This document shows positions 46,051-58,972 of a stretch of DNA of 64,000 bases, piece after piece. The DNA comes from Chitinophaga agri. GTDB taxonomy: Bacteria; Bacteroidota; Bacteroidia; Chitinophagales; Chitinophagaceae. Positions within the stretch are counted from its first letter, which is position 1, and every line of letters begins with the position of its first letter. The notes below the pieces were generated by a model. The model was given only the letters and a program-made list of their open reading frames with translations. It was not told where the DNA came from and searched no databases. Made by a program: the position numbers and the translations under genes. The stretch is taken from NCBI RefSeq assembly GCF_010093065.1, contig NZ_CP048113.1:62001-126000 (forward strand). The letters are read 5' to 3'.

Positions 46051-46362
46051 ATGAAGATCGCTTTTAAAATGCAGCTCAAACCAGGCTGCAAAGAAGAGTA
46101 CCGTAAGCGCCACGATACCATATGGCCCGAACTGAGCGTATTGCTGAAAGACAATGGCGTCAGCGACTATACCATCTTCCTCGACGAAGAAACAAACACC
46201 CTGTTTGGCGTGCAGCAACAGGCAGGGGGACGGTCATCGCAGGATCTGGGTGCCTTGCCTGTTGTGCAACGCTGGTGGGCCTATATGGCCGACCTGATGG
46301 AGACCAATGAAGACAATTCACCGGTGACGAAACCGTTGGTACAGGTATTTCATATGGACTGA
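46051..46362 (+). CDS. rhaM: L-rhamnose mutarotase RhaM
   Basis: 103-aa dimeric alpha-beta barrel protein that interconverts alpha- and beta-L-rhamnose so that the isomerase gets its preferred anomer. Seen: [23 protein letters not shown] (His near residue 24 is the catalytic His), [20 protein letters not shown], and [29 protein letters not shown], matching the WxxxMADIM...P...EVFHL end of the family. Last gene of the rhamnose/lactate cluster. Its stop directly abuts the stop of the convergent usher-like gene, with no base between. Confidence 0.93.
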
Positions 46363-49005
46363 TCATCTCCTTTCCAGTATAAACTGGATATCGTCTATCA
46401 CATCACCTTCCCGCTTGGCGCTGATATGGATATCATAAGCTGCCTGCTGTGGTTTCATCTTCAGTTTCTTCATCTGTGCCGGGTCAGGCTGAATAACATA
46501 ATCGCCCGGCGGTAGTCCCATATAGTTGAAATACCCGTCCGATTCCGTCAGGATACATTTTACCAGCGTACTGTCTGATTTATAAATGCAGATCTTAATA
46601 CCCGACTGCTCCTTCAGCAGGGTATCTTCCCGCAAACGTACCGTACCTGCCACTTCTCCCATTACAGATACGGGTACATCTACACGGCGCAGCTGATTCG
46701 GCTCTATGGTGACGCGTATGGTGGGTTTGCTGATCTGCCAGGATACACTCTCAAAGCCTTTGGATTCCAGTTCGAACAGGTACGCGGCGTAAGGCTCCAT
46801 ATCCATGATGCAGATGCTGGTATCCTTGAGATTACGCATCATTCTGCCGCCGTTATATTTTAACTGCAGGCCTTCCACTCTGGGCTCTCCTTTATCAAAC
46901 CGTTCATTGTTGTTGAGGTCGAGGAATGGCACAAATACAATACCTCCTGAGCCAACGCTGGAGCGGTGATATGCACCGGAATAACCCGAATTCCCATCAT
47001 GGATGATACTGCCTCTGGCTGATTCCACCAGTGTGGTCAGGTTGTTATTGCGCCACAGCGAAAAGCCGATCTGTGCAAAGGAAAAATCATAGCGCAGCCC
47101 TATGCCATAGTTAGTGATATTGTTACGGTAGTTCTTCTCATAGGAGACGTTCAGATAGCCGTTCTTAAAGAGATATTTTCCTGCCTCTGCACGTACCGCC
47201 ATGAAGCGCTGACTGTTGTAATCATATTGTACCTGTGGCGTGAACAGGATATTGCCGGGCACCCGGAATGTCAGGGCCAGATTGCTGTATACAAACGGGT
47301 CCTCGTCTTTCATAAAGATCGCGTAGGTGGACAGACTGGTTCCGATCCTGTACACTGCACCTGATACCAGCCATTCTGTAGTCGTATAATGGGATCCGGG
47401 CAGGATGATCTGGTCGACGGTGAACCGGTTGAAGACAGAGAAATTCTTCGAAGTGAACGGTTTGGATATAACCGCTTTCCGTTCCTCCAGCCAGTTATAG
47501 ATGATGGCCGTCTGTCCTTTTTTAAACTTCGAATAACTTAGTTCTGCCTGCCAGTTGTTCTGGCTGCGGTAACTCAGGATGCCTCTTCCCCTGACACCAT
47601 AGGTGTATTCCCCCGAGAACAGCAGGTTGGCTACAAGGCGGATGGAGGTCGTCACGAAGGGCAGCGTATTGGCCTTTCTGATGGACGAGAGGTACTCAAC
47701 GCCTGCGCCGACGGTAATGGTATTGGTGATGCCGTAGCTGGCCTGAATACGGCCTAATTTGCTGTTTACAGAGTCTTCTGCCACACCTGCACTGGCGGTG
47801 TACTCAAATTCACGGGCGGGCAGGAAATTGAAAGGAATATTGATGTTCTCTTCGAGGAATCGCTCCTCCCCCCACGGACCGTAGAATCGCAGCCTGATCT
47901 GTGAATTTCCGTATACCAGCGGTACCTGGAAGGTATAAAAACCAGCGGCATCAGCTACGGTATAATCAACCAGGGCATTATTGATATAGAGCTCCACTGT
48001 CCACCCGGGATCTGTAAAGTTACTGAGGGTGTAGGTGCCATAGGAACGACGGTATGTAGTTGGGGCATTGGTGACCTGTACACCAACCACCGGCGCATAC
48101 AGCGAGGAGATGGTAGGGGTGAAGATCTTACCGGCAACCACCTGTCGCAGCCACTTTCTGTCATTGTTAACGAACCGTAACCGGTAGTACTGCTGCCGCT
48201 GATCGAAAGGACGGATGATACTACTGTCAGGATGTATTGCTTTTAACTGCTGCCGCGCATAGTTGTTGTAGTTCAGTGATACGGTAGCTTCCCCTCCGGC
48301 AAACGTACCTCCCATGGTCAGGTTCAGCCAGGTGTCATTGACACTCTGTAAACGCTGGGTAGATACGACCGACCAGTCTGCCATACCGAATTTGAACAAC
48401 TTTTTGCTTCGTCCGATGGTCGTGTCAGCAACAATATTCCCCTTCAGTTTATTCAGGTTGCGATAAATGAGCTGTTGCCGCATCTCCCGGATGGCAGGTA
48501 ACTCTACCTTGGAACTTACCTTAACAGATAAGCTCCGGAAACTGAACTGACAGTCCAGGTTAAACACGCTGGTGAAATAGTCTGTACGCAGGTAAAGCCC
48601 TGTTTCCATTTTCACCAGGTCGTCAGGCTTTACGTTGAAGACTTTATCCCGGAAGCGGATCACGTTATTCTTTTTATCGATCAGGAACCCGGCATCCTGG
48701 GTGATGAAGAAACCGGATAACGAGTCCAGTGTTTCCGACGTCATATTACGGATCTTCAGAAAGTTGAATACATCCGTAATCGAGAGATAGGCAATTTCAT
48801 CTTTCACCACAGCAGGTATCTCAGCACCGCCTAAGCCCTGCAATATCACCATGATGGAAGTTTCGTCATATTTGGGGTCTTCGTCATTATCACCTTCTTT
48901 GTCTTTTGCATACATGGGGAGTGCACACGCTGCCAGCAGCAGTATACAGACTGCTTTGCCGCAATGCCGCAACAATGGAATAATATGGATAGTAATGCCT
49001 GTCAT
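46363..49005 (-). CDS. usher-like outer membrane protein
   Basis: 880 aa with signal peptide (about 1-33, ending LPMYA). Residues 40-200 form a periplasmic-type N-terminal region (VVKDEIAYLSITDVFNFLKIRN); 210-330 enter a beta-barrel (YYRLRFVNNDRKWLRQVVAGKI); 340-415 hold a plug-like Ig module (GWTVELYINNALVDYTVADAAGFYTFQVPLVYG and RLRFYGPWGEER), as in fimbrial ushers; 415-710 are further alternating strands; then VPFLDLNNNERFDKGEPRVEG, a Ca-binding-type motif seen in usher-like proteins; and a C-terminal Ig/SdrD-like module. It closes an operon with a PapD-like chaperone and two DUF4402 proteins, which supports a role as the subunit-exporting pore. It diverges strongly from classical FimD/PapC, so the name usher-like is an inference. 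Confidence 0.78.
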   Translation of the reverse strand: MTGITIHIIPLLRHCGKAVCILLLAACALPMYAKDKEGDNDEDPKYDETSIMVILQGLGGAEIPAVVKDEIAYLSITDVFNFLKIRNMTSETLDSLSGFFITQDAGFLIDKKNNVIRFRDKVFNVKPDDLVKMETGLYLRTDYFTSVFNLDCQFSFRSLSVKVSSKVELPAIREMRQQLIYRNLNKLKGNIVADTTIGRSKKLFKFGMADWSVVSTQRLQSVNDTWLNLTMGGTFAGGEATVSLNYNNYARQQLKAIHPDSSIIRPFDQRQQYYRLRFVNNDRKWLRQVVAGKIFTPTISSLYAPVVGVQVTNAPTTYRRSYGTYTLSNFTDPGWTVELYINNALVDYTVADAAGFYTFQVPLVYGNSQIRLRFYGPWGEERFLEENINIPFNFLPAREFEYTASAGVAEDSVNSKLGRIQASYGITNTITVGAGVEYLSSIRKANTLPFVTTSIRLVANLLFSGEYTYGVRGRGILSYRSQNNWQAELSYSKFKKGQTAIIYNWLEERKAVISKPFTSKNFSVFNRFTVDQIILPGSHYTTTEWLVSGAVYRIGTSLSTYAIFMKDEDPFVYSNLALTFRVPGNILFTPQVQYDYNSQRFMAVRAEAGKYLFKNGYLNVSYEKNYRNNITNYGIGLRYDFSFAQIGFSLWRNNNLTTLVESARGSIIHDGNSGYSGAYHRSSVGSGGIVFVPFLDLNNNERFDKGEPRVEGLQLKYNGGRMMRNLKDTSICIMDMEPYAAYLFELESKGFESVSWQISKPTIRVTIEPNQLRRVDVPVSVMGEVAGTVRLREDTLLKEQSGIKICIYKSDSTLVKCILTESDGYFNYMGLPPGDYVIQPDPAQMKKLKMKPQQAAYDIHISAKREGDVIDDIQFILERR

Positions 49006-49012
49006 TAGCGTT

Positions 49013-49516
49013 TTATTCCTGTATAAATGTGACCGAAAACACGCCGCTGTAATTGCCCGCCGGATTCGCCGGTGGCGGCCCTACGGTAAGTGTACCTCCG
49101 ATGCGCACAATCGTGCGTGCAGGGGTGGTTGCTGTTGCTATAAAAGGGGAGCCTGTACTGGACGTTCCAATATGTAAGGCTAAAGTGCCACCGTTGCTGC
49201 CGGTGAGCGTAACATCCGGTCCGTTCAGGATGGAGACCAGTGTACCGGGATTTGCATCTACTTCAAATATGGCCGGTGAGAACGGAAAACCGAGATTCGC
49301 CTGTACGATACTACCCGTCACGGAGCGGGATCCGTCAGGAAAGATGGTGACCGTTCCCCCGGTAACACCCTGGAAGAATGCGCCGAAGATCAATCCCTGT
49401 GCGGGATTAACATACACTGATATCGGCCTGGGGGGCTGTTCCTGACCGTATAACACGGCCGGGGTCAGTAGCAGTCCGATACAGAATAGACGATATATAC
49501 GCTTGATTACTTTCAT
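49013..49516 (-). CDS. DUF4402 protein, second putative fimbrial subunit
   Basis: 167 aa from ATG 49516; a longer frame from 49537 would overlap the giant gene, while this start leaves 7 nt and gives a clean signal peptide (KRIYRLFCIGLLLTPAVLYGQ). DUF4402 features are visible: PAQGLIFGAFFQGVTGGTVTIFPDGSRSVTG near 25-55, FEVDANPGTLVSIL, and the closing NYSGVFSVTFIQE strand, which resembles the donor/acceptor-type last strand of pilin subunits. Family DUF4402 is beta-sandwich and often found with chaperone-usher-like genes. Short and single-domain, so a minor or tip subunit; inferred. Confidence 0.83.
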   Translation of the reverse strand: MKVIKRIYRLFCIGLLLTPAVLYGQEQPPRPISVYVNPAQGLIFGAFFQGVTGGTVTIFPDGSRSVTGSIVQANLGFPFSPAIFEVDANPGTLVSILNGPDVTLTGSNGGTLALHIGTSSTGSPFIATATTPARTIVRIGGTLTVGPPPANPAGNYSGVFSVTFIQE

Positions 49517-49523
49517 CAGATAA

Positions 49524-52500
49524 TTATTGGTTCGCAATGAAGACTTTCTTCGACACCTGTTGTCTGTTCGCCGAGAACGTCACGATATAAATGCCGCCAG
49601 TATAATGTGATCCCAGCAAGTAGCGGCCGTTGCCGGTAAAGTCTTTCCGTAGTAATACCTGTCCGGATACGTTGCTGACGGTGATCGTACATTTTTCTCC
49701 CGGCACCTTGTCAAACTGTCCATACAAACTGTTACCCACAGCAAACGCATGGTAGTTCATATTTCCGTCAGCCGGGGTGTTATCCTCACCTTCTCTTAGT
49801 ACCAGGAAGAAACGGTCATCAAAACTGCCTTTACGCAGGAACAGTCGGTAGGGAGTCGACTGCTGCAGATCATGTGTCACATTTGCTTCCCTGTCATACA
49901 GGTAAAAATGCCTGTTTAATGGCATACGTTCGATCACCGGAAGTGTAAAGCTTACATAGCCTTCTCTTTCCGTCGTGATGCCCAGTGGTATCATCTCAGT
50001 ACTGTCTATATCGTTCGGCCATGCAGCAATGGACTGGCGCTGCGTACCCGCCATGACATAGAGGTTGGGTATAAATTCATCTGTGTTGAAAAGTTTCAGC
50101 GCATCAATATCTACTTCAAATGCTCTCGCATAACTGTTGTCAAAGTAGATCACCGCCGGGTCAGCAGGGTACCCTTCATCTGTATAACCAGCACTTATGC
50201 GCAGCAGTGGTTCTGTCAGGGGGCGTTCCCTGTGAAAATTAGGTGCCAGGTTGTTCACCCTGGCAGCATTGGTCACGCGGAGTAAACCAGATACCGGGTA
50301 GGCGCCATCGCTGACATGTACGAAGAATCCCTGCATCGCGGGGATGATATTATTTGCTATACCATCACTGGAAACCCCGTTGATATAAGAGGCGTAGGTA
50401 CCTGTATATTGATTAGTGCTACCCGCGTTGAAGAAGTAGATGGCATTGTCAATATTGGTCCGCGTCCAGGCACTCGTAGCATCCCAGTCGACAGGAGAGG
50501 GGTATGGATTGCCTACCAGGTTGAACCCTTTGGTATACGGCTGGTTATTGTTGGTCAGCGTAGGAGCGGTGATCGTACCATTATTCACGGTGCCGGTCAT
50601 GTCTATGACAACAGGGGAGGTGCTCGTACCCAGATTCCCTGCATATCCCAGCATAGGTGTCAGAATATTAGATGTGGCCGTGTAGGACACCCAGCCCGAA
50701 GAAGTACGGTTTTCTACATACCGGTAGAATCTCGGGAAGGTTGCACTCAGGTTAATATCATTGGAAAACTCATCCACTGTGGCTGCATTGAACGGAGAAC
50801 TCAGATAAGTATATCCGAAACCGGTCGGACGATAACGCTGAATCTTTACGCTGCCCGTTACAGCGCCATTACCACTGCCGTCAATAAGTGCCGTACGTGT
50901 GGCAGTTGATAATAGTGTGAGGAACGTAGAGGTGGAGAATGCTCCTGTGCTGGCTTTCAGTACGCCAGAGATGTTCAGTGTACCGAGCAGTGATACGCCG
51001 AACGTATTGTTCGTTGTCAGATTGAGTATCGTATTACCTGCAAATACATTCGCAGGAATGGCCTGCGCAGCGGTTGTACTGGTCATTTCAATGGTGCCAT
51101 TGCTGGCGGTGAATGTGCCGCTGTTGGTGATGGCTCCGTATATCTGCATGGTACCACCGTTCACCGTGACAGCAGCACCACTTTGTATGATCAGGTTGTT
51201 CGTCACAGCGGTACCTGTAGTGATCAGCGGATAATTGGTCAGACCAGTTGGAATGGTCGCATTTGTAGTACTGATAGGTACAATGTTGTTTGACCAGTTC
51301 CCATCCAGGAACCAGTTCACATTTACCGCCCCTGTCCAGGTATTGTCGATGATAGATTCTCCTACCGCCAGTGCTACATTAAGATTTGTAATACCGGTAG
51401 CAATGATGGAAGTTGGGAGCGGCGTATTAGATGCCGGCGCGCTCCAGGTAGTCCCGTTATATGCGCCTGCTTTGAAATTGGCCGTATTGGAACCGGCATC
51501 TACATCTGCGGCATTCCAGTTCAGTGTAACGGATGCACTGGTAAAGGCCAGTCCTGTATTGGCAAACGTCCAATACCTGTTGACACTTTTATTCGGATTC
51601 AGATTGGAAGTAGCAATATTGGGATGGTCAGGCGTAGCAACCGTCGTCAGTATACTACCGGATGTGGTGACATTGGGAATCGTGATCACAGCGGGCGTGT
51701 AGTAAGATACACCTCCTACTTCAAACGTGCGTGTGGCACTGCCGGTAGGAAATGCTTTTTGGAGTCGGCCAACCACCCAGCCGGTAGACTGTGAAGCCCC
51801 GGTAACAGTACCTGTCGCCGGCTGTATCAGGGCGAATGTGTTGCCGGTTGTTATCTTGCCCCGCAAGAAGTTCAGTACACTGTTGATCGTCACATTCGAA
51901 CCGAGTGTAATACCATTCGTCAGTTTATTTACCGTCAGGTTATTGAAAGCACCAGTAGAAGTGATCGTCTGCGTGCCGGCACCATTGAAGTAAACAGTCG
52001 CTCCTGTATTATTGTAGGTGCCACTTGTCATTGTCCAGTTGCCACCAATTGTGTCAGTAAAGCTGCCCTGTACAAAGGTGCCGTTAGACAGGGTAAAGTC
52101 ATTTAATATTTTCAGTATCGCGGATGCAGTTTTGCTGCCGGAAGTGGAGATCACCAGGTTACCGTAAGGAGTAACTGCTGATACAGCCTGCGTACTACCG
52201 CCGTATTCAACTGTACTGAATGTGTCCACCGTGTATGACGTAAAGGTCGGTAAGGTTTGTGTACCCCTGAGGATCAGTCGTGCATTGTCTTCTATGGCCA
52301 GTGAGCTGGCCGCGGTCGCAGTAATGGCGAAGCCGGCGGCATCAAATATGCCCGTATTGACCGTGATATCGTCCACTGCAGTAATGGCTTTTGCAAGGAA
52401 GACTGTTACACCTGCGTCCTTTTGGATAGTCACCTGAGACAGGTTAAATGAAGCCGCAGCACCCGAGATATTACCAGCCACGCTACCCACCATGGTCAGG

Positions 52501-55500
52501 GTACCCACTGTGCCATCATAGGTGCCGTTATTGGTAAAATTACGGGCCACGTTATAGTCAGAGATTGCCGTTGTGGATCCGGTGATGGTAAGGTCGTAGA
52601 ATGTGGTGCCGGGACTACCTGTTAATTGCGCATCTGCGGCGGTCATGACAAAGGTGGAGGTGCCGCCGTTCAGCGTACCGTTGCTTTCCACGTCACCGGC
52701 TACCGTATAGGTGTAGCTGCCCGCATTGAAGATGGCATTATTGGCAATCATGAAGTCGCCGTTAACAGGCCAGTTAGCGGAAGGGGTGACGCCGCTGGTG
52801 TTCGTGATCAGTACGTTGCCCAGTGCGGTTGGTGCACCCACGACACTGATGGCGCCGGTCCCACCGAATAATAAAGTACCCGTGCTGGTAAATGCTGTAC
52901 CGCTTAGTCTGATCGTTTGTGCTGCGGAAGGAAGAAAGTTCATGGTTCCGCTACTGGTAACAGTGCCATTGTTGGTAAAAGATCCAAAGATGTTATGTGT
53001 GGAAGGACCTCCGTTGAACGTGGCGCCGTTAGCTATGTTAAAGGCAATGCCCACATTCCATCCTACGCTGGCGGTAACGCCCCCCGTATTATTGATGTTC
53101 AGTGTGGCATACGTAGGTGTACTGGTCGAGTTGAGCACCGGTGGAATGGTGCCGTTGAAATTGATAACGCCACTGGAATTAGATACCAGTGCATTGACAA
53201 ACCGGATCGTTTGCTGTGCCGTTCCGGTGAAAGTCGTAACACCATTGCTGGTGAGTGAACCATTATTGGTCAGATCTCCATTTATAGTAGCGGTGCCGCT
53301 GCCCCCGTTAAAGGAACCGCCAGTCGCGATCGTCAGCAAAGTGTTGTACGTAATATTACTGCCACTCACCACGTAGCTACCATATGCAGTGAGACGGTTG
53401 AAAGTAGTATTACCGTTGATGGTTTTGTTCGCCCCGTTCAACGTAACGGTGCTGGTCGCAGGTGCAAAGGTGCCGCTGTTATTCCAGTTGCCAAACAGGT
53501 TGATGGTGTAGGTTGCGCCATTGAGCGTCGCACCGCTGTTGATCGTGATGTCTCCATTCACAATGGAGGTCGCAGCCAGTGTTTTGGTTCCGCCGTTACT
53601 GAATATCAGGTTACCATAAGAGATACCCGCTACCGACTGCGCAACACTGCCATTATAGTTGGTCGTACTGGTACTGCCCAGGGTATTGGTGGAATAACCA
53701 CCAGGGAAGTTGCTGGTGCCACCTGCAAGCAACGTAGCACCATTCGCCAGCGTAAATGTACCCCCTGCTGACGCTCTGGAAGCGGTAAAAGTAGAAAGGT
53801 TCAATGTCCCACTGTTAACAGATAGATTTCCATTGATAGGGCAATTGCCTGTCAGCGTAACCGATCCACCAGTGTTACTTACAATAAGATTATTAAAAGT
53901 GGTAGCAGCTACCGTTTGTGTACCTGTACCATTTAATGTTACCGTACCACCGGAAGAGGAGAATGTACCACTGTTATTCCAGTTGCCGCCAACTGTTAAT
54001 CCGACTACGCCACTGTTCAGAATAGCGCCCGGCGATATGTTTACGTCACCTGTTACGTTCGTCGCTCCGTTCATCGTCATAGAGCCTCCGGTGACGCTCA
54101 GGGTACCTGCGGCACTGGCAGCACTGCTAAGTAAAGCGTCGCCCGCACTTTTGCCGATCAGGAGATTGTAATAGGAGAGCCCTGCAATATTCTGTGCGCC
54201 ACTACCATTGTAGTTGACCGTACCCGTACCGGGTGTGAATGTGCCATTTGTATAGTTGTAGTTACTACCGATGTTCAGTCTGCCTGCACCGGAGAATACG
54301 ACATTGGCCCCGCCTGATTGTGTAAGGGAACCGCCTACAGTAACCGTGCCTGCGCCTATATTCAGGTTAATAGCATGTGCGGCTGTACCATCACTTAAAG
54401 GCAGGTCGCCATTGACGGTAAGCGTCTGAGCGCCTACGTTGATGTTATGCGTCACATTCGCGGACCATTTACCCGCTATATTACCCTGTGTGGTCAGTGA
54501 ACCACCGGAAGCAACTGTCAGATTAACTGCCTGCACACTACCGAGGGAGATCGCTTTTACAGATGCAGTGGTGCTGATAGTTGGTTGATTGGTGAAGGCG
54601 ATCGTACCTATTTCAGCGACATCATTTACACCTGGCGGGCGGGAAGGAGACCCCTGCAGGACGGTCCAGTTATTGGCATTGGACCAGTCGCTGCTGACTG
54701 AACCATTCCAGCGTACCACATTGGAATTATCTGATAATGTCCAGCGGCCGTTGATCGCTAATTGCCCGCTGATTTCAACATAATTGTCCGTCGTGTTATT
54801 CCCTGATTTACCAACAGCCCCCCAGCCGGCCCCACTGTTATACCAGAGTCCCATCGTGGATTCATTGTTACCATTCAGTTCTCCGTCTTCATAGTGAAGT
54901 CTCACGGTAGTAAGCCCAAGCGTAAGGCCGGTATTGATCGTATATACGCGGTTGATAGCACTTCCCTGCGGGAAATCACCGATAGGGCCGATGGCCACAG
55001 ATACAGTGATTGATCCCGTCAAAGGAAGCCCCAGAATAGATAACGAGTTATTGGGACTTTCAAACGCATAGGTCCCGCCCAGTCCGAACGATTGGGTACG
55101 CCGGATATTTCCCAGGATAACACCTGGACCGGTCCTGTCTACTGTCATGTTCACGACGTTGGTACCTGTGTTCATGGTACCAACGGTCATGTTGATGGTT
55201 GCGGCATTCACATCATTGTTCAGGTTCACCTGTGTGGACTGCGCGCCTTTATTGAGTGTGAGTATGTTAAAGGTGGTGACACCTGTGATCGTAGAGATAT
55301 TACTGCCAATGAATGCGAACGTACTGGTAGCAGCATTAAAAGTACCATTGTTGGTAAAGTCCAGCAGTACCTGGTGCGTAAAACTGCCTGCATTAAAAGT
55401 TGTGCCGGATGCCAGCGTAAAATAGCTGGAAGTGATGGCGCCGGCAGCCGTTTTCGCGGACCCGCCGGAGAGTAATAGTCTGTTGTAGGTGAGGGCGTTA

Positions 55501-57482
55501 ATAGTCTGTGCAGCAGTACCGTTGAAGTTAACCGTATTGGGTGTAGTGGAGGTGACATTTAAAGTACCCGCAGTAACAGTGAAAGTATTGGCAATGCCCA
55601 GCACGGCATTGGTAGACAATTGCAGGGATGTACCATTCAAAGCTACATTAAAAAGATTAGCGGTACCATTGAGGGTGCTGGTACCCGCGAATGTAGCGGT
55701 ACCGGCAGTCGCAGAAAAGGACCCGCTGACATCCAGTGTCGTGCTGACGGAGAAGGGGACCGCTGTTGTGACAGTACCCGGTATGATCAGTGAGCCGAAT
55801 GCGATCGTACCCGCTCCTGAAATGGTCTTGCTGGCGCCCTGCATAGAGATGGTGCCACCTGTACCGGTAAGCGTGCCACTAACAACGAGGTTACCTGTCA
55901 GTATCACGCTGCTCGTTGTACTCATACTTCCTGAAACCGTGAGGTTATCAAGTGTAATACTAGCCCCTGTAATAGTTTTCGTGGCCCCTGTCATGGTCAC
56001 TGTTCCCCCCGGTGCATGTGTGAATGCGCCCGGACCTGTCGTGGCAAAGTTACCCACAATCGTAATAGAAGCGGTAGCGGCAGCTGAGATATTAGTGGCT
56101 GTGACGTTCAGGTTATTGAATCCGTGTGTACCGGTACCACTGATGCTGGTGCCGGGACCGTTCATATTGACAGTACCGGTGCCTCCGGCAAAGGTGCCGG
56201 TATTCACCCAGTTACCGCTGATATCTATAGTGAAGCTTCCACCGTTGAAGGTAGTGCCGGTATTAATAGTCGTATTACCCGAGATAACGATATTAGCCGC
56301 CGCGGTGAACGTAACTGATGTGCCGGCACCCGGTGTACTGGTGAGGTTACCGGCTACGGTAAATGCGGTAGCAGGCATGGTCTTCACGACGGCGCCGCTG
56401 CTACTGGAAAGGGTCAGGTTACCGTAGGTCTCTGCTGATACATTCTGCGCCAGACCGTTGTATTCAACAGTGCTTGAAAGCGCAAATGAACGGGTGACAA
56501 AGTTGGCCGGCATGGTACCTGTCCCTCCGATCCGCAGGGTGGCGCCATTCGCAATAGAGATGGTGCCACCGGCAACAGTTGTACCCCTGTTGGCTGTGAA
56601 GGAGGAAAGATCCAGTATACCGGCATTTACCACGATCATTCCGGCTGCGCTGGTACTCGAGTTCATGGCATTGAGATTACCGGCAAGTGTCTTCACGAGC
56701 GCCCCGCTGATGCGCAATGTCGAATAGGTCAGGTCATTACGCACCGTTTGATTACTGAGGCTGGCGCTGTATTCCACCGTGCTGCCTGCACTCAGTGTAG
56801 TAGTGCCTGTGAGTGCATAGTTGGTGGCAAAAGTAGCGCCCTTCACATGTAGCACGCCTGTAGCTGTTACGCTGAGCGTGCCTGCACCGGAGATCAGGGT
56901 GGTGGTGCTTTCGGAGGGGAGAAGGGTACCGCTGACTGACAACGCAATCGTGACCGCAAAACTGGCTGCTGGTGTTACAGTGGCGCCGGCACTGATCGTC
57001 AGGCGTCTGAAAGAGATACCGCTACCATTAATACTCTGCGTAATACCTGCCCCTGCCATAGTGATACGCGATGAATTGCTGGTGGCTGTGTAGGTGCCGT
57101 TATTGATAAAGTCGCCTTTTACAGTGACAGTGACCCCTCTGTGGGAAATCGTACAGCCGCTTCCAATCGTGAGCGTGCCGGATACAGTCAGTCCCTTGGA
57201 GACGGTCAGTACGGGGTTCTTCGCGCTGGTGACAAGTGTAAGCGTCCGGCATGCGGCAGTAACAGAACTGATAGTGGGCTGAAAGGAACCTGTGAACGAA
57301 GCATCTCCGATGACAGCATCAACAGATGCTGTCGGAATACCCGCCGTCCAGTTGTTGGCATCATTCCATGTAGTGCTAACAGTGCCTTTCCAGCTTGTCT
57401 GGCACCATACCGTAACCGGCAGACTAAGTAACAGGATGAGGAGTGTAAAACAAACAGGGGTAAATTTGCTGTCAGTATTCAT
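49524..57482 (-). CDS. giant repeat adhesin with T9SS type A sorting domain
   Basis: 2652 aa, signal peptide FTPVCFTLLILLLSLPVTVWC. Mostly a Thr/Ser/Gly/Asn-rich beta-solenoid-like chain of recurring units (FNNLTVS, GNWNNSGTF, TVTLNGTGTQTV), with three WN..NNW modules: near residues 30-60 (WNDANNWTAGIP), 925-960 (WSNANNWTVLQG) and 2047-2080 (WFLDGNWSNNIVP). These resemble the modules of large T9SS surface proteins. After about residue 2290 a non-repetitive region follows, and the last 65 residues are a T9SS type A sorting domain: CTITVSNVSGQVLLRKDF and GGIYIVTFSANRQQVSKKVF. So it should leave by T9SS and be anchored or released at the surface. It lies between the PapD-like chaperone (61 nt upstream) and the second DUF4402 gene. 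Reverse-strand open frames here are composition artefacts. Confidence 0.9.
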   Translation of the reverse strand: MNTDSKFTPVCFTLLILLLSLPVTVWCQTSWKGTVSTTWNDANNWTAGIPTASVDAVIGDASFTGSFQPTISSVTAACRTLTLVTSAKNPVLTVSKGLTVSGTLTIGSGCTISHRGVTVTVKGDFINNGTYTATSNSSRITMAGAGITQSINGSGISFRRLTISAGATVTPAASFAVTIALSVSGTLLPSESTTTLISGAGTLSVTATGVLHVKGATFATNYALTGTTTLSAGSTVEYSASLSNQTVRNDLTYSTLRISGALVKTLAGNLNAMNSSTSAAGMIVVNAGILDLSSFTANRGTTVAGGTISIANGATLRIGGTGTMPANFVTRSFALSSTVEYNGLAQNVSAETYGNLTLSSSSGAVVKTMPATAFTVAGNLTSTPGAGTSVTFTAAANIVISGNTTINTGTTFNGGSFTIDISGNWVNTGTFAGGTGTVNMNGPGTSISGTGTHGFNNLNVTATNISAAATASITIVGNFATTGPGAFTHAPGGTVTMTGATKTITGASITLDNLTVSGSMSTTSSVILTGNLVVSGTLTGTGGTISMQGASKTISGAGTIAFGSLIIPGTVTTAVPFSVSTTLDVSGSFSATAGTATFAGTSTLNGTANLFNVALNGTSLQLSTNAVLGIANTFTVTAGTLNVTSTTPNTVNFNGTAAQTINALTYNRLLLSGGSAKTAAGAITSSYFTLASGTTFNAGSFTHQVLLDFTNNGTFNAATSTFAFIGSNISTITGVTTFNILTLNKGAQSTQVNLNNDVNAATINMTVGTMNTGTNVVNMTVDRTGPGVILGNIRRTQSFGLGGTYAFESPNNSLSILGLPLTGSITVSVAIGPIGDFPQGSAINRVYTINTGLTLGLTTVRLHYEDGELNGNNESTMGLWYNSGAGWGAVGKSGNNTTDNYVEISGQLAINGRWTLSDNSNVVRWNGSVSSDWSNANNWTVLQGSPSRPPGVNDVAEIGTIAFTNQPTISTTASVKAISLGSVQAVNLTVASGGSLTTQGNIAGKWSANVTHNINVGAQTLTVNGDLPLSDGTAAHAINLNIGAGTVTVGGSLTQSGGANVVFSGAGRLNIGSNYNYTNGTFTPGTGTVNYNGSGAQNIAGLSYYNLLIGKSAGDALLSSAASAAGTLSVTGGSMTMNGATNVTGDVNISPGAILNSGVVGLTVGGNWNNSGTFSSSGGTVTLNGTGTQTVAATTFNNLIVSNTGGSVTLTGNCPINGNLSVNSGTLNLSTFTASRASAGGTFTLANGATLLAGGTSNFPGGYSTNTLGSTSTTNYNGSVAQSVAGISYGNLIFSNGGTKTLAATSIVNGDITINSGATLNGATYTINLFGNWNNSGTFAPATSTVTLNGANKTINGNTTFNRLTAYGSYVVSGSNITYNTLLTIATGGSFNGGSGTATINGDLTNNGSLTSNGVTTFTGTAQQTIRFVNALVSNSSGVINFNGTIPPVLNSTSTPTYATLNINNTGGVTASVGWNVGIAFNIANGATFNGGPSTHNIFGSFTNNGTVTSSGTMNFLPSAAQTIRLSGTAFTSTGTLLFGGTGAISVVGAPTALGNVLITNTSGVTPSANWPVNGDFMIANNAIFNAGSYTYTVAGDVESNGTLNGGTSTFVMTAADAQLTGSPGTTFYDLTITGSTTAISDYNVARNFTNNGTYDGTVGTLTMVGSVAGNISGAAASFNLSQVTIQKDAGVTVFLAKAITAVDDITVNTGIFDAAGFAITATAASSLAIEDNARLILRGTQTLPTFTSYTVDTFSTVEYGGSTQAVSAVTPYGNLVISTSGSKTASAILKILNDFTLSNGTFVQGSFTDTIGGNWTMTSGTYNNTGATVYFNGAGTQTITSTGAFNNLTVNKLTNGITLGSNVTINSVLNFLRGKITTGNTFALIQPATGTVTGASQSTGWVVGRLQKAFPTGSATRTFEVGGVSYYTPAVITIPNVTTSGSILTTVATPDHPNIATSNLNPNKSVNRYWTFANTGLAFTSASVTLNWNAADVDAGSNTANFKAGAYNGTTWSAPASNTPLPTSIIATGITNLNVALAVGESIIDNTWTGAVNVNWFLDGNWSNNIVPISTTNATIPTGLTNYPLITTGTAVTNNLIIQSGAAVTVNGGTMQIYGAITNSGTFTASNGTIEMTSTTAAQAIPANVFAGNTILNLTTNNTFGVSLLGTLNISGVLKASTGAFSTSTFLTLLSTATRTALIDGSGNGAVTGSVKIQRYRPTGFGYTYLSSPFNAATVDEFSNDINLSATFPRFYRYVENRTSSGWVSYTATSNILTPMLGYAGNLGTSTSPVVIDMTGTVNNGTITAPTLTNNNQPYTKGFNLVGNPYPSPVDWDATSAWTRTNIDNAIYFFNAGSTNQYTGTYASYINGVSSDGIANNIIPAMQGFFVHVSDGAYPVSGLLRVTNAARVNNLAPNFHRERPLTEPLLRISAGYTDEGYPADPAVIYFDNSYARAFEVDIDALKLFNTDEFIPNLYVMAGTQRQSIAAWPNDIDSTEMIPLGITTEREGYVSFTLPVIERMPLNRHFYLYDREANVTHDLQQSTPYRLFLRKGSFDDRFFLVLREGEDNTPADGNMNYHAFAVGNSLYGQFDKVPGEKCTITVSNVSGQVLLRKDFTGNGRYLLGSHYTGGIYIVTFSANRQQVSKKVFIANQ

Positions 57483-57542
57483 GCGTTTTGGTTAATGTTC
57501 TGCGATTACGCGTTACGCAGGCCGGAATAATACTATCAGTGA

Positions 57543-58370
57543 TCAGTGTAGCTGTAATTCTGTTTGTGCTATCGGTTCGGGTGCAGCATCTTTTGATTGT
57601 GGGGTATAGGAGATCCGTAGTTTTCCATTATGGTAGTCGATACCCGGTTTTTTATCCAGTTCCATGTGAAATTGTCTGAATGATGTAGGGGTGTAAACCG
57701 CCAGTCCTCTCACATTCGCCACATTCGTGATCTTACCTTTTTCAGATACATACTCAACATTGATGTCCCCATACACAGAGTGATTCCCCGAACGGCGTAC
57801 CACCATCTTCAGCGAGGCGGGTGCATTTTCAGGGGCATCCAGGGCGACGTCAGTCAGGTTCACCTTTATATCAGGAGTACCGGTCCTGATGATCACAGGT
57901 ATACTGATACCAAATACGGGTGTAAGGGTGACAGATATGCTGGTCGAGTCTTTCAGTTTTGGGGCCTCACCCTGTATCCTTGTATCTGGTACTGCTCTGA
58001 AATAAATGTGCGAACGGTATTCGCCAGGTTGCAGTTGCCCGGTTTTCACCAGCTGCACTTTCACCAGTTGTGCCTCACCAGGGGCGAGTGTTACACTTCT
58101 TGGAAAGAGACGGAGAAAGCCACTGGCGAACAATTGTCCCGAATCAGGTTCCGTGATCTTTTCAAAAGTGCCATTGTTGTTCATGCGGATTTCGATAACA
58201 GAGATCAGATACCTGGCAGTGTCCTGTCCGGTATTGGCAAGATTAAGTTCCTGTATTTTCTTTTGCCCGTCAAAGATGACCCTCATAGGTGTGATCAGCA
58301 GATTGCCCTGTGCGAATGTGTTAAACGGGAGTAAGAGTGGAATGAATTTCAGTAAATGGATGATGCGCAT
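57543..58370 (-). CDS. PapD-like periplasmic fimbrial chaperone
   Basis: 275 aa from ATG 58370 (the TTG two codons upstream is ignored). Signal peptide RIIHLLKFIPLLLPFNTFAQ. The mature protein shows the two Ig domains of PapD-type chaperones: domain 1 (about 20-140) with LLITPMRVIFDGQKKIQELNLANTG, LFPRSVTLAPGEAQLVKVQL, and the G1-like YRSHIYFRAVP segment; domain 2 (150-270) with GISIPVIIRTG and LKMVVRRSGNHSVYGDINVEYV. The chaperone binds nascent subunits and delivers them to an usher. Neighbours are two DUF4402 subunits, a large adhesin and an usher-like barrel, all on the same strand. Divergent from classical members, but the fold assignment is good. Confidence 0.85.
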   Translation of the reverse strand: MRIIHLLKFIPLLLPFNTFAQGNLLITPMRVIFDGQKKIQELNLANTGQDTARYLISVIEIRMNNNGTFEKITEPDSGQLFASGFLRLFPRSVTLAPGEAQLVKVQLVKTGQLQPGEYRSHIYFRAVPDTRIQGEAPKLKDSTSISVTLTPVFGISIPVIIRTGTPDIKVNLTDVALDAPENAPASLKMVVRRSGNHSVYGDINVEYVSEKGKITNVANVRGLAVYTPTSFRQFHMELDKKPGIDYHNGKLRISYTPQSKDAAPEPIAQTELQLH

Positions 58371-58399
58371 AAACAATGTTGAAAAAATGAATGCCCAAT

Positions 58400-58436
58400 A
58401 AGGCCCTTCCGGCCGTTCTCATACCGGGAGGGCCTT
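58400..58436 (-). terminator. hairpin after the first DUF4402 gene, possible attenuator
   Basis: 13-bp stem (58400-58412 with 58424-58436; one T-G wobble) with an 11-nt loop, between the DUF4402 stop and the chaperone start. Read on the minus strand it is followed by ATTGGGC, not a T-run, so it may limit rather than stop transcription. Confidence 0.55.
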
Positions 58437-58456
58437 TGGGTGAAGTCAGCCTGATC

Positions 58457-58972
58457 TTAGTTGTAGTTCACAGTAACGTCGAAAGGCGTACCTGAAACAT
58501 ACACACCGGCAGGCTGGCCGGCACTTACATTAAGGGTAGCTCCTACATTCAATACCTGAGAACCACCTGTCAGTGTGCCAGTACCTGAAGGATCACTGGT
58601 AAACGCAGTAACGGTCATGGTATTGGCACCACTGGTGATCGTCAGCGGAGTAGTAGGCAGTGTGATCGTGTACGTATAACCGGTTGTACCAGCTACCGTA
58701 AATGAAGCGGCCGTTACTGTTCCTGCAGTTGTCGGTAATGTTACGCCGCCTGTACGCGTACGTGTGCCGGCAGGGGTCAGTACCACTGTACCTGCCGTTG
58801 TAGACTGTACGGCCACATTGCCGAAGTTCATATCAACGTCTTTCGTGATACTGATAGGCGTGACAATCGTCGCCGTCACCGTTGCCGATGCCGTCTCCTG
58901 TGCCCGCACTGTTGTTGTTGCTGCGCATGCTAATGCAAACGAAGCAACGAAAAGCAGTCGTGTTCTTTTCAT
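58457..58972 (-). CDS. DUF4402 protein, putative major fimbrial subunit
   Basis: 171 aa, signal peptide KRTRLLFVASFALACAATTTVRAQ. The mature part is one DUF4402 beta-sandwich: ASATVTATIVTPISITKDVDMNFGNVAV (the standard family opening), TVVLTPAGTRTRTGGVTLP, ASFTVAGTTGYTYTITLP and the closing VYVSGTPFDVTVNYN strand. Such proteins are pilin-like in size and fold. It is the first gene of the minus-strand operon and is followed by a hairpin, a layout often used to make the main subunit more abundant than the chaperone and usher. Polymer formation is inferred. Confidence 0.87.
   Translation of the reverse strand: MKRTRLLFVASFALACAATTTVRAQETASATVTATIVTPISITKDVDMNFGNVAVQSTTAGTVVLTPAGTRTRTGGVTLPTTAGTVTAASFTVAGTTGYTYTITLPTTPLTITSGANTMTVTAFTSDPSGTGTLTGGSQVLNVGATLNVSAGQPAGVYVSGTPFDVTVNYN

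Follow-up and report, generated by a model that had tools for sequence, protein, structure and literature searches.

We have analysed computationally a block of five consecutive minus-strand genes in the genome of Chitinophaga agri (GCF_010093065.1, a single 7.97-Mb contig, NZ_CP048113.1), located in a stretch of 64,000 nucleotides (nt) that spans positions 62,001-126,000 of the contig and is hereafter called the window. The block encodes, in this order, a first DUF4402 subunit (D1), a chaperone, a protein of 2652 amino acids (aa) (X), a second DUF4402 subunit (D2) and an usher; a preliminary description of this DNA had proposed the same five genes and order, and all the open reading frames (ORFs) were found at the positions that it gave. 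In the reading that we favour, to which we would give an even chance, the block encodes a divergent chaperone-usher fibre with a split tip adhesin, in which D2 would be exported through the usher, X through the type IX secretion system (T9SS), and X would dock on D2. This reading draws on the computed gene order, the fold predicted for the usher, the sorting domain of X, the occurrence of X together with SprA (the T9SS gene searched) and a match across genomes between the N-terminal arm of D2 and the tail of X. The features of the block, with positions counted in the window, are the following (L and G numbers hereafter denote loci and genomes, respectively).

58457..58972, minus strand: D1, DUF4402 subunit, 171 aa (PF14352, 104 bits, cut-off 25.2), presumed subunit of the fibre shaft
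58853..58897, minus strand: D1 N-terminal extension, residues 26-40, alternating small and hydrophobic residues, candidate donor strand
57543..58376, minus strand: PapD-like periplasmic chaperone, 277 aa (PapD_N, 18.4 bits, below the cut-off of 23)
49524..57482, minus strand: X, 2652-aa repeat protein with a T9SS type A sorting domain (TIGR04183, 27.8 bits, cut-off 23), presumed adhesin
51216..57482, minus strand: variable repeat body of X, about residues 1-2089, absent from or different in many other X (blastp)
49524..51215, minus strand: conserved C-terminal core of X, about residues 2090-2652, which makes up nearly all of the minimal X found elsewhere
49527..49751, minus strand: sorting domain (C-terminal domain, CTD) of X, PNP-less variant, whose profile match begins at position 17 of 72
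49013..49537, minus strand: D2, DUF4402 subunit beside the usher (PF14352, 68.6 bits), with its ATG start probably at 49516
49424..49444, minus strand: proline-rich N-terminal arm of D2, standing where a donor strand would be
46363..49005, minus strand: divergent usher, 880 aa, an usher by predicted fold
48511..48867, minus strand: usher N-terminal domain, residues 47-165, from the secondary structure of the model, outside the structural matches
46996..48396, minus strand: usher barrel of 24 strands as counted on the model, residues 204-670, covered by the structural matches
47839..48045, minus strand: domain forming the usher plug, residues 321-389, flanked in the model by barrel strands 6 and 7
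46363..46947, minus strand: usher C-terminal beta domains, residues 687-880, two domains, the last one SdrD_B-like

The close spacing reported in the preliminary description was borne out, with gaps of 80 nt between D1 and the chaperone, 60 nt between the chaperone and X, and 7 nt both between X and D2 (counted from the ATG at 49516) and between D2 and the usher. A longer D2 ORF, from a TTG at 49537, would overlap X. At the other end of the block, the usher gene and a convergent plus-strand gene end on neighbouring bases, 46362-46363. A promoter pattern of Bacteroidetes gave no match, and sigma-70-type promoters were found at chance level (18 observed, 17.6 expected), while terminator-like sites numbered 19 with 11.0 expected. 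The order D1-type subunit, chaperone, X (not always present), D2, usher was found repeatedly across Chitinophagaceae and Bacteroidales; the conservation that the preliminary description had asked about is therefore real, and the gene order is not a chance run. The C. agri genome contains one usher of this family and two DUF4402 genes, both within the block. Ushers of the family were found in 15 of the 117 genomes of the taxonomic family (one of them a fragment); the corresponding figures were 17 of 396 for the order (E<=1e-30) and 70 of 395 for the phylum (E<=1e-20, the weakest matches being partial). Among 80 named loci the nearest usher was that of Chitinophaga sp. YR627 (87%), and a tree of ushers placed the C. 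agri protein among Chitinophaga. Among the candidates scored, at least 2192 relatives of the usher and at least 5519 of the chaperone were recovered at E<=0.001.

Variants of the block were seen along the way. It occurs in tandem duplicate in Chitinophaga filiformis DSM 527 (L033/L034) and in genome G447 (L143/L144). The usher of Chitinophaga pinensis YS-16 (L045:1894-4531) is broken into three ORFs, and an X tail is there present on a short ORF only, perhaps as a result of sequencing errors. A distant clade, L155-L200 (e.g. L165, L183 and L192), presents four DUF4402 genes followed by a chaperone and an usher; in some members the block is preceded by a large protein, about 1630-1880 aa long, whose tail is of the PNP type (several of these run past the edge of the locus sequence), and in others by a cassette of small proteins that look like pseudopilins.

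The 15 best structural matches of the usher model, obtained with the single aligner on which all our structural matching of models rests, were FimD/PapC, and by its predicted fold the 880-aa protein is an usher. That the barrel might belong to an unrelated transporter, a possibility raised in the preliminary description, was rejected on the basis of these matches. The relation showed little at the level of sequence: the Pfam Usher family PF00577 had no match in the protein at E<=1 and matched weakly in two of eight remote usher relatives (E 0.01 and 0.14), and hhalign of the usher family against FimD, a single-sequence template, returned a probability of 0.2%. Pfam and NCBIfam scans detected no POTRA family in the usher at E<=1. 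Some relatives carry additional domains. Bacteroidales ushers of the family (L061:9875-13543, L099:9971-13654 and L053:9920-13165) end in two or three peptidoglycan-binding SPOR domains (54-90 bits, cut-off 21), and SPOR-bearing ushers are named 'cell division protein FtsN' by some sources; in the remote relative L170:8665-12480, TPR repeats follow the usher part.

The structure model of D1 ranked among pilins. Its N-terminal extension is predicted as coil, the first strand beginning at residue 41, and in all 38 D1 where it could be measured (42 examined) the Q and FG positions stood 25-30 residues apart. Of 44 homologues of the chaperone, 27 matched PapD_N and 30 matched fn3_5 at E<=0.01, and some sources label its relatives 'P pilus assembly chaperone PapD'. 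As for the usher, little similarity to the model pili was detected: hhalign of the family alignments against FimC, FimD and FimA of E. coli K-12, used as single-sequence templates, gave probabilities below 1%, and the sole pilus protein among the matches listed in sequence searches of the PDB was CFA/I subunit E (E 1.0-1.4).

We then considered the tail of X. The sorting domain exceeds one curated cut-off (TIGR04183) and stays below the other (PF18962, Por_Secre_tail, 18.6 to 26.1 bits, cut-off 27), and X is a predicted T9SS type A substrate that lacks the PNP motif, a motif common in type A sorting domains, though not formally defining. The genome holds 44 sorting-domain matches at E<=0.001 including X, of which 43, X among them, are over the cut-off; 42 of the 44 begin at positions 1-3 of the profile, X at position 17 and one other at 15. 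A first neighbour rule gave a candidate X at 68 of 94 ushers (a less strict rule, applied afterwards, recovered X that had been missed), and 65 of the 68 candidate tails matched both TIGR04183 and PF18962 at E<=0.1. The other three, which we take to be L072, L088 and L108, are unrelated genes, and each also misses a profile built specifically for X tails. A chance match of the sorting domain was rejected, since 65 of 68 tails carry it. The PNP motif was present in four of these 65 X and absent from 61, that of C. agri included, compared to 29 of the 30 best-scoring domains out of the 43 others in the C. agri genome, a choice that favours the motif. PNP corresponds to motif A, where the domain begins and strands 1 and 2 lie (PMC4804311), and a glycine motif in the strand 3-4 loop is one of two reported as relevant for secretion in Porphyromonas (PMC11285876). 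A glycine judged by eye to be this loop glycine is invariant in the X sorting domains.

X as a whole is modular, with a conserved core of about 560 residues at its C-terminal end and a repeat body that varies. When the C. agri protein was compared with other X by blastp (up to two segments each), the core showed about 40-56% identity in distant X of the PPxP type defined below, the short fragments L062 and L093 being lower. Minimal X of 568-598 aa exist in other genomes, and the giant size of X is therefore dispensable. In L017, L023 and L038 a second large ORF (1155, 995 and 848 aa, respectively), with no recognised sorting domain, lies between the chaperone and a minimal X; the starts of these proteins resemble those of tail-fibre-type surface proteins.

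An indirect link between X and the fibre genes came from D2. The N-termini of the two DUF4402 subunits differ, and the extension that would serve D1 as a donor strand is missing from D2. We classified D2 arms and X tails at 108 ushers, the distant clade L155-L200 being kept out of the counts, with a motif rule devised after five errors of an earlier rule (L026, L037, L053, L077 and L078). A DUF4402 gene immediately precedes the usher in 101 cases and X adjoins D2 in 77; the idea that the giant gene is private to the C. agri strain was thus rejected, and its absence from this locus in all relatives, put forward in the preliminary description as a case against the proposal, was not found. Results showed 73 ushers with a PPxP arm and a PNP-less X, four with a PGDP arm and a PNP-type X, 20 with an armless D2 and no X, two with a PPxP arm and no adjacent X, two at contig ends and seven with no recognised D2. 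Clustering at 90% identity reduced the 108 ushers to 94, with 60, 4, 20, 2, 2 and 6 in the same classes. No mismatch of arm and tail occurred among the 108 ushers, no X adjoined an armless D2, and neither arm was present in any of 44 D1. Note that in 11 of the 20 armless cases the locus is reduced to a D and an usher and its D resembles D1, so that the informative armless D2 are nine.

Individual loci add detail. L026 has the repeat body of the C. agri X but not its core, and L018 has an X similar to that of C. agri up to residue 2489 but not in the sorting domain; in both, the D2 arm is PGDP. As for the two PPxP-armed D2 with no adjacent X, at L041 X lies directly after the usher, and in the genome of L024 (G011) a PNP-less X is found on another contig (74.3 bits). 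Among the seven ushers with no recognised D2, L047 and L096 stand at contig ends; at L076 and at the second usher of L066 a PPxP-armed D2 is present beyond the reach of the distance rule. A distance-correlation test on 28 loci favoured the pair D2-X over D1-X, a suggestive but not decisive result.

The occurrence of X was also compared with that of the T9SS. SprA is present in C. agri (TIGR04189, 2948 bits) and in all 33 genomes tested, a subset of those with X-bearing loci. It was found in none of 15 X-less Bacteroidales genomes, whose completeness is not given and in which the usher genes persist; these 15 fall in one clade of the usher tree and therefore count as about one event. SprA is also present in four other genomes with no X before D2 (G055, G011, G117 and G118). 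The usher part can thus persist in the absence of a T9SS, and the joint pattern of SprA and X fits a requirement of X for the T9SS. The two export routes inferred in the preliminary description are supported, on one side by the usher fold and the pilin-like DUF4402 model and on the other by the sorting domain, the presence of SprA and the co-occurrence of SprA and X.

We also searched the 117 family genomes, scoring up to 40 candidates in each, with a profile built from 55 PNP-less X tails. Nine matches reached at least 74 bits, all in usher-bearing genomes, and the next one scored 48.9 bits; at this level the PNP-less domain is present in nine of 15 usher-bearing and none of 102 usher-less genomes. 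The nine genomes are those with a PPxP-armed D2; eight of the matches were members of the profile by construction and the ninth (G011) was not. As for the six other usher-bearing genomes, G049 and G077 have a PNP-type X, G074 a PGDP arm at a contig end, G055 no arm, G104 no D2 and G087 the usher fragment. In a 15-genome search in which all candidates were scored, the PNP-less tail was found neither in G055, which is armless and T9SS-bearing, nor in five Chitinophaga with no usher match. G118 gave a weak partial match (39.7 bits) that corresponds to a PNP-type domain.

How might these parts work together? D1 and D2 would behave as pilin-like subunits that the chaperone escorts and the usher polymerises. 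D1, with its candidate donor strand, would form the shaft by donor-strand exchange, and D2, which seems to have none, would be the first subunit out and stand at the tip with its proline-rich arm free; in known pili, the first subunit to be exported is the one at the tip, and it has no N-terminal extension. X, which is probably too large for an usher, would cross the outer membrane separately via the T9SS, for which it would use the modified sorting domain, and the C-terminal core of X would dock on the D2 arm, so that the fibre of one machine would carry the presumed adhesin of the other. The more specific proposal that the short arm and a purpose-made, PNP-less and perhaps retained T9SS domain reunite D2 and X outside the cell is more tentative, and we hold it at somewhat less than even confidence. 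The T9SS domain would thereby act as an address to a fibre, which is not known to be the destination of any other CTD. Two points weigh against the split adhesin: the independent evolutionary events behind the match of arm and tail are few, and type A tails are all said to use PorV (PMC12618676). The single surface structure proposed in the preliminary description thus gains indirect support from the matching of arm and tail, while contact between D2 and X is something we infer. That description missed the N-terminal difference between D1 and D2, the PNP-less tail and the dispensable size of X.

The main competitor, rather unlikely in our judgement, is that one operon encodes two independent surface features, a usher fibre of D1 and D2 and an ordinary anchored T9SS adhesin, X, merely co-expressed with it. 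The match of arm and tail would then reflect the adjoining 3′ end of X and 5′ end of D2 moving as one DNA segment, a view in keeping with their separation of 7 nt in C. agri and of -13 to +14 nt at most loci, and with usher genes that persist without X. However, in G011 and at L041 a PPxP-armed D2 goes with an X that lies on another contig or after the usher. These are two cases, to which can be added that loss of X accompanies loss of the arm and that, in the family sample, the PNP-less domain is confined to usher-bearing genomes.

Two further readings were considered. With the help of D2, X might anchor or cap the fibre at the cell surface instead of sitting at its tip, D2 being its base or terminator subunit; the D2 gene adjoins that of the usher, and the missing donor strand was judged from sequence length only. 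When a subunit has no donor strand, though, others can come after it but it cannot come after another, which fits the first, tip subunit of known systems; this reading is improbable. Export of X through the usher, its sorting domain merely docking it to the usher or to D2, appears more improbable still. It would have a parallel in Pseudomonas CupB, where a TpsA-like protein, CupB5, belongs to a chaperone-usher cluster and its secretion depends on the POTRA-bearing P-usher (PMC3031594), and X does sit among usher genes. However, no POTRA domain was matched in the C. agri usher, all candidate X tails but the three unrelated genes carry the T9SS domain, and the 15 genomes that lack SprA have no X.

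The split-adhesin fibre can be set beside several known systems. With Fim/Pap and the archaic Csu pili it would share a 24-strand usher barrel with its plug inserted between strands 6 and 7, N- and C-terminal usher domains, a putative PapD-like chaperone and pilin-like subunits with and without an N-terminal extension. In contrast to them, the C. agri usher has no FimD similarity in Pfam or hhalign, D1 and D2 are single-domain proteins with no fused adhesin domain, and a T9SS protein is encoded inside the operon. Type V fimbriae (FimA/Mfa1) are surface fibres of the same phylum; their building blocks are lipoprotein precursors that assemble once proteolysed, and no usher takes part. The nearest arrangement is CupB (CupB3 and CupB5), with a large non-pilin surface protein in a chaperone-usher cluster; the usher of CupB is POTRA-bearing and is considered the exporter of the large protein (PMC3031594), whereas no POTRA was found in the C. 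agri usher and X is marked for the T9SS. Type B CTDs are targeting signals, each paired with a PorP/SprF-like partner of its own, often genetically linked, that decides the location of the protein (PMC9143113, PMC12618676); the tail of X is type A-like, and its proposed partner is a pilus subunit instead of an outer-membrane barrel. PorA, PorU and PorZ keep their CTD after secretion and provide a precedent for a retained tail but, unlike X, belong to the T9SS machinery (PMC11285876).

Searches of open-licence papers, at the level of titles and abstract beginnings, turned up no report that links a chaperone-usher system with the T9SS, nor one on DUF4402. The parts belong to known kinds and, as far as this search shows, their coupling is undescribed. 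If the split-adhesin reading is true, two outer-membrane export machines would cooperate on one organelle. This would explain how a fibre of single-domain subunits acquires an adhesin and how a protein that is probably too large for the usher is placed on a pilus, and T9SS tails would gain a new role as the address of a fibre.

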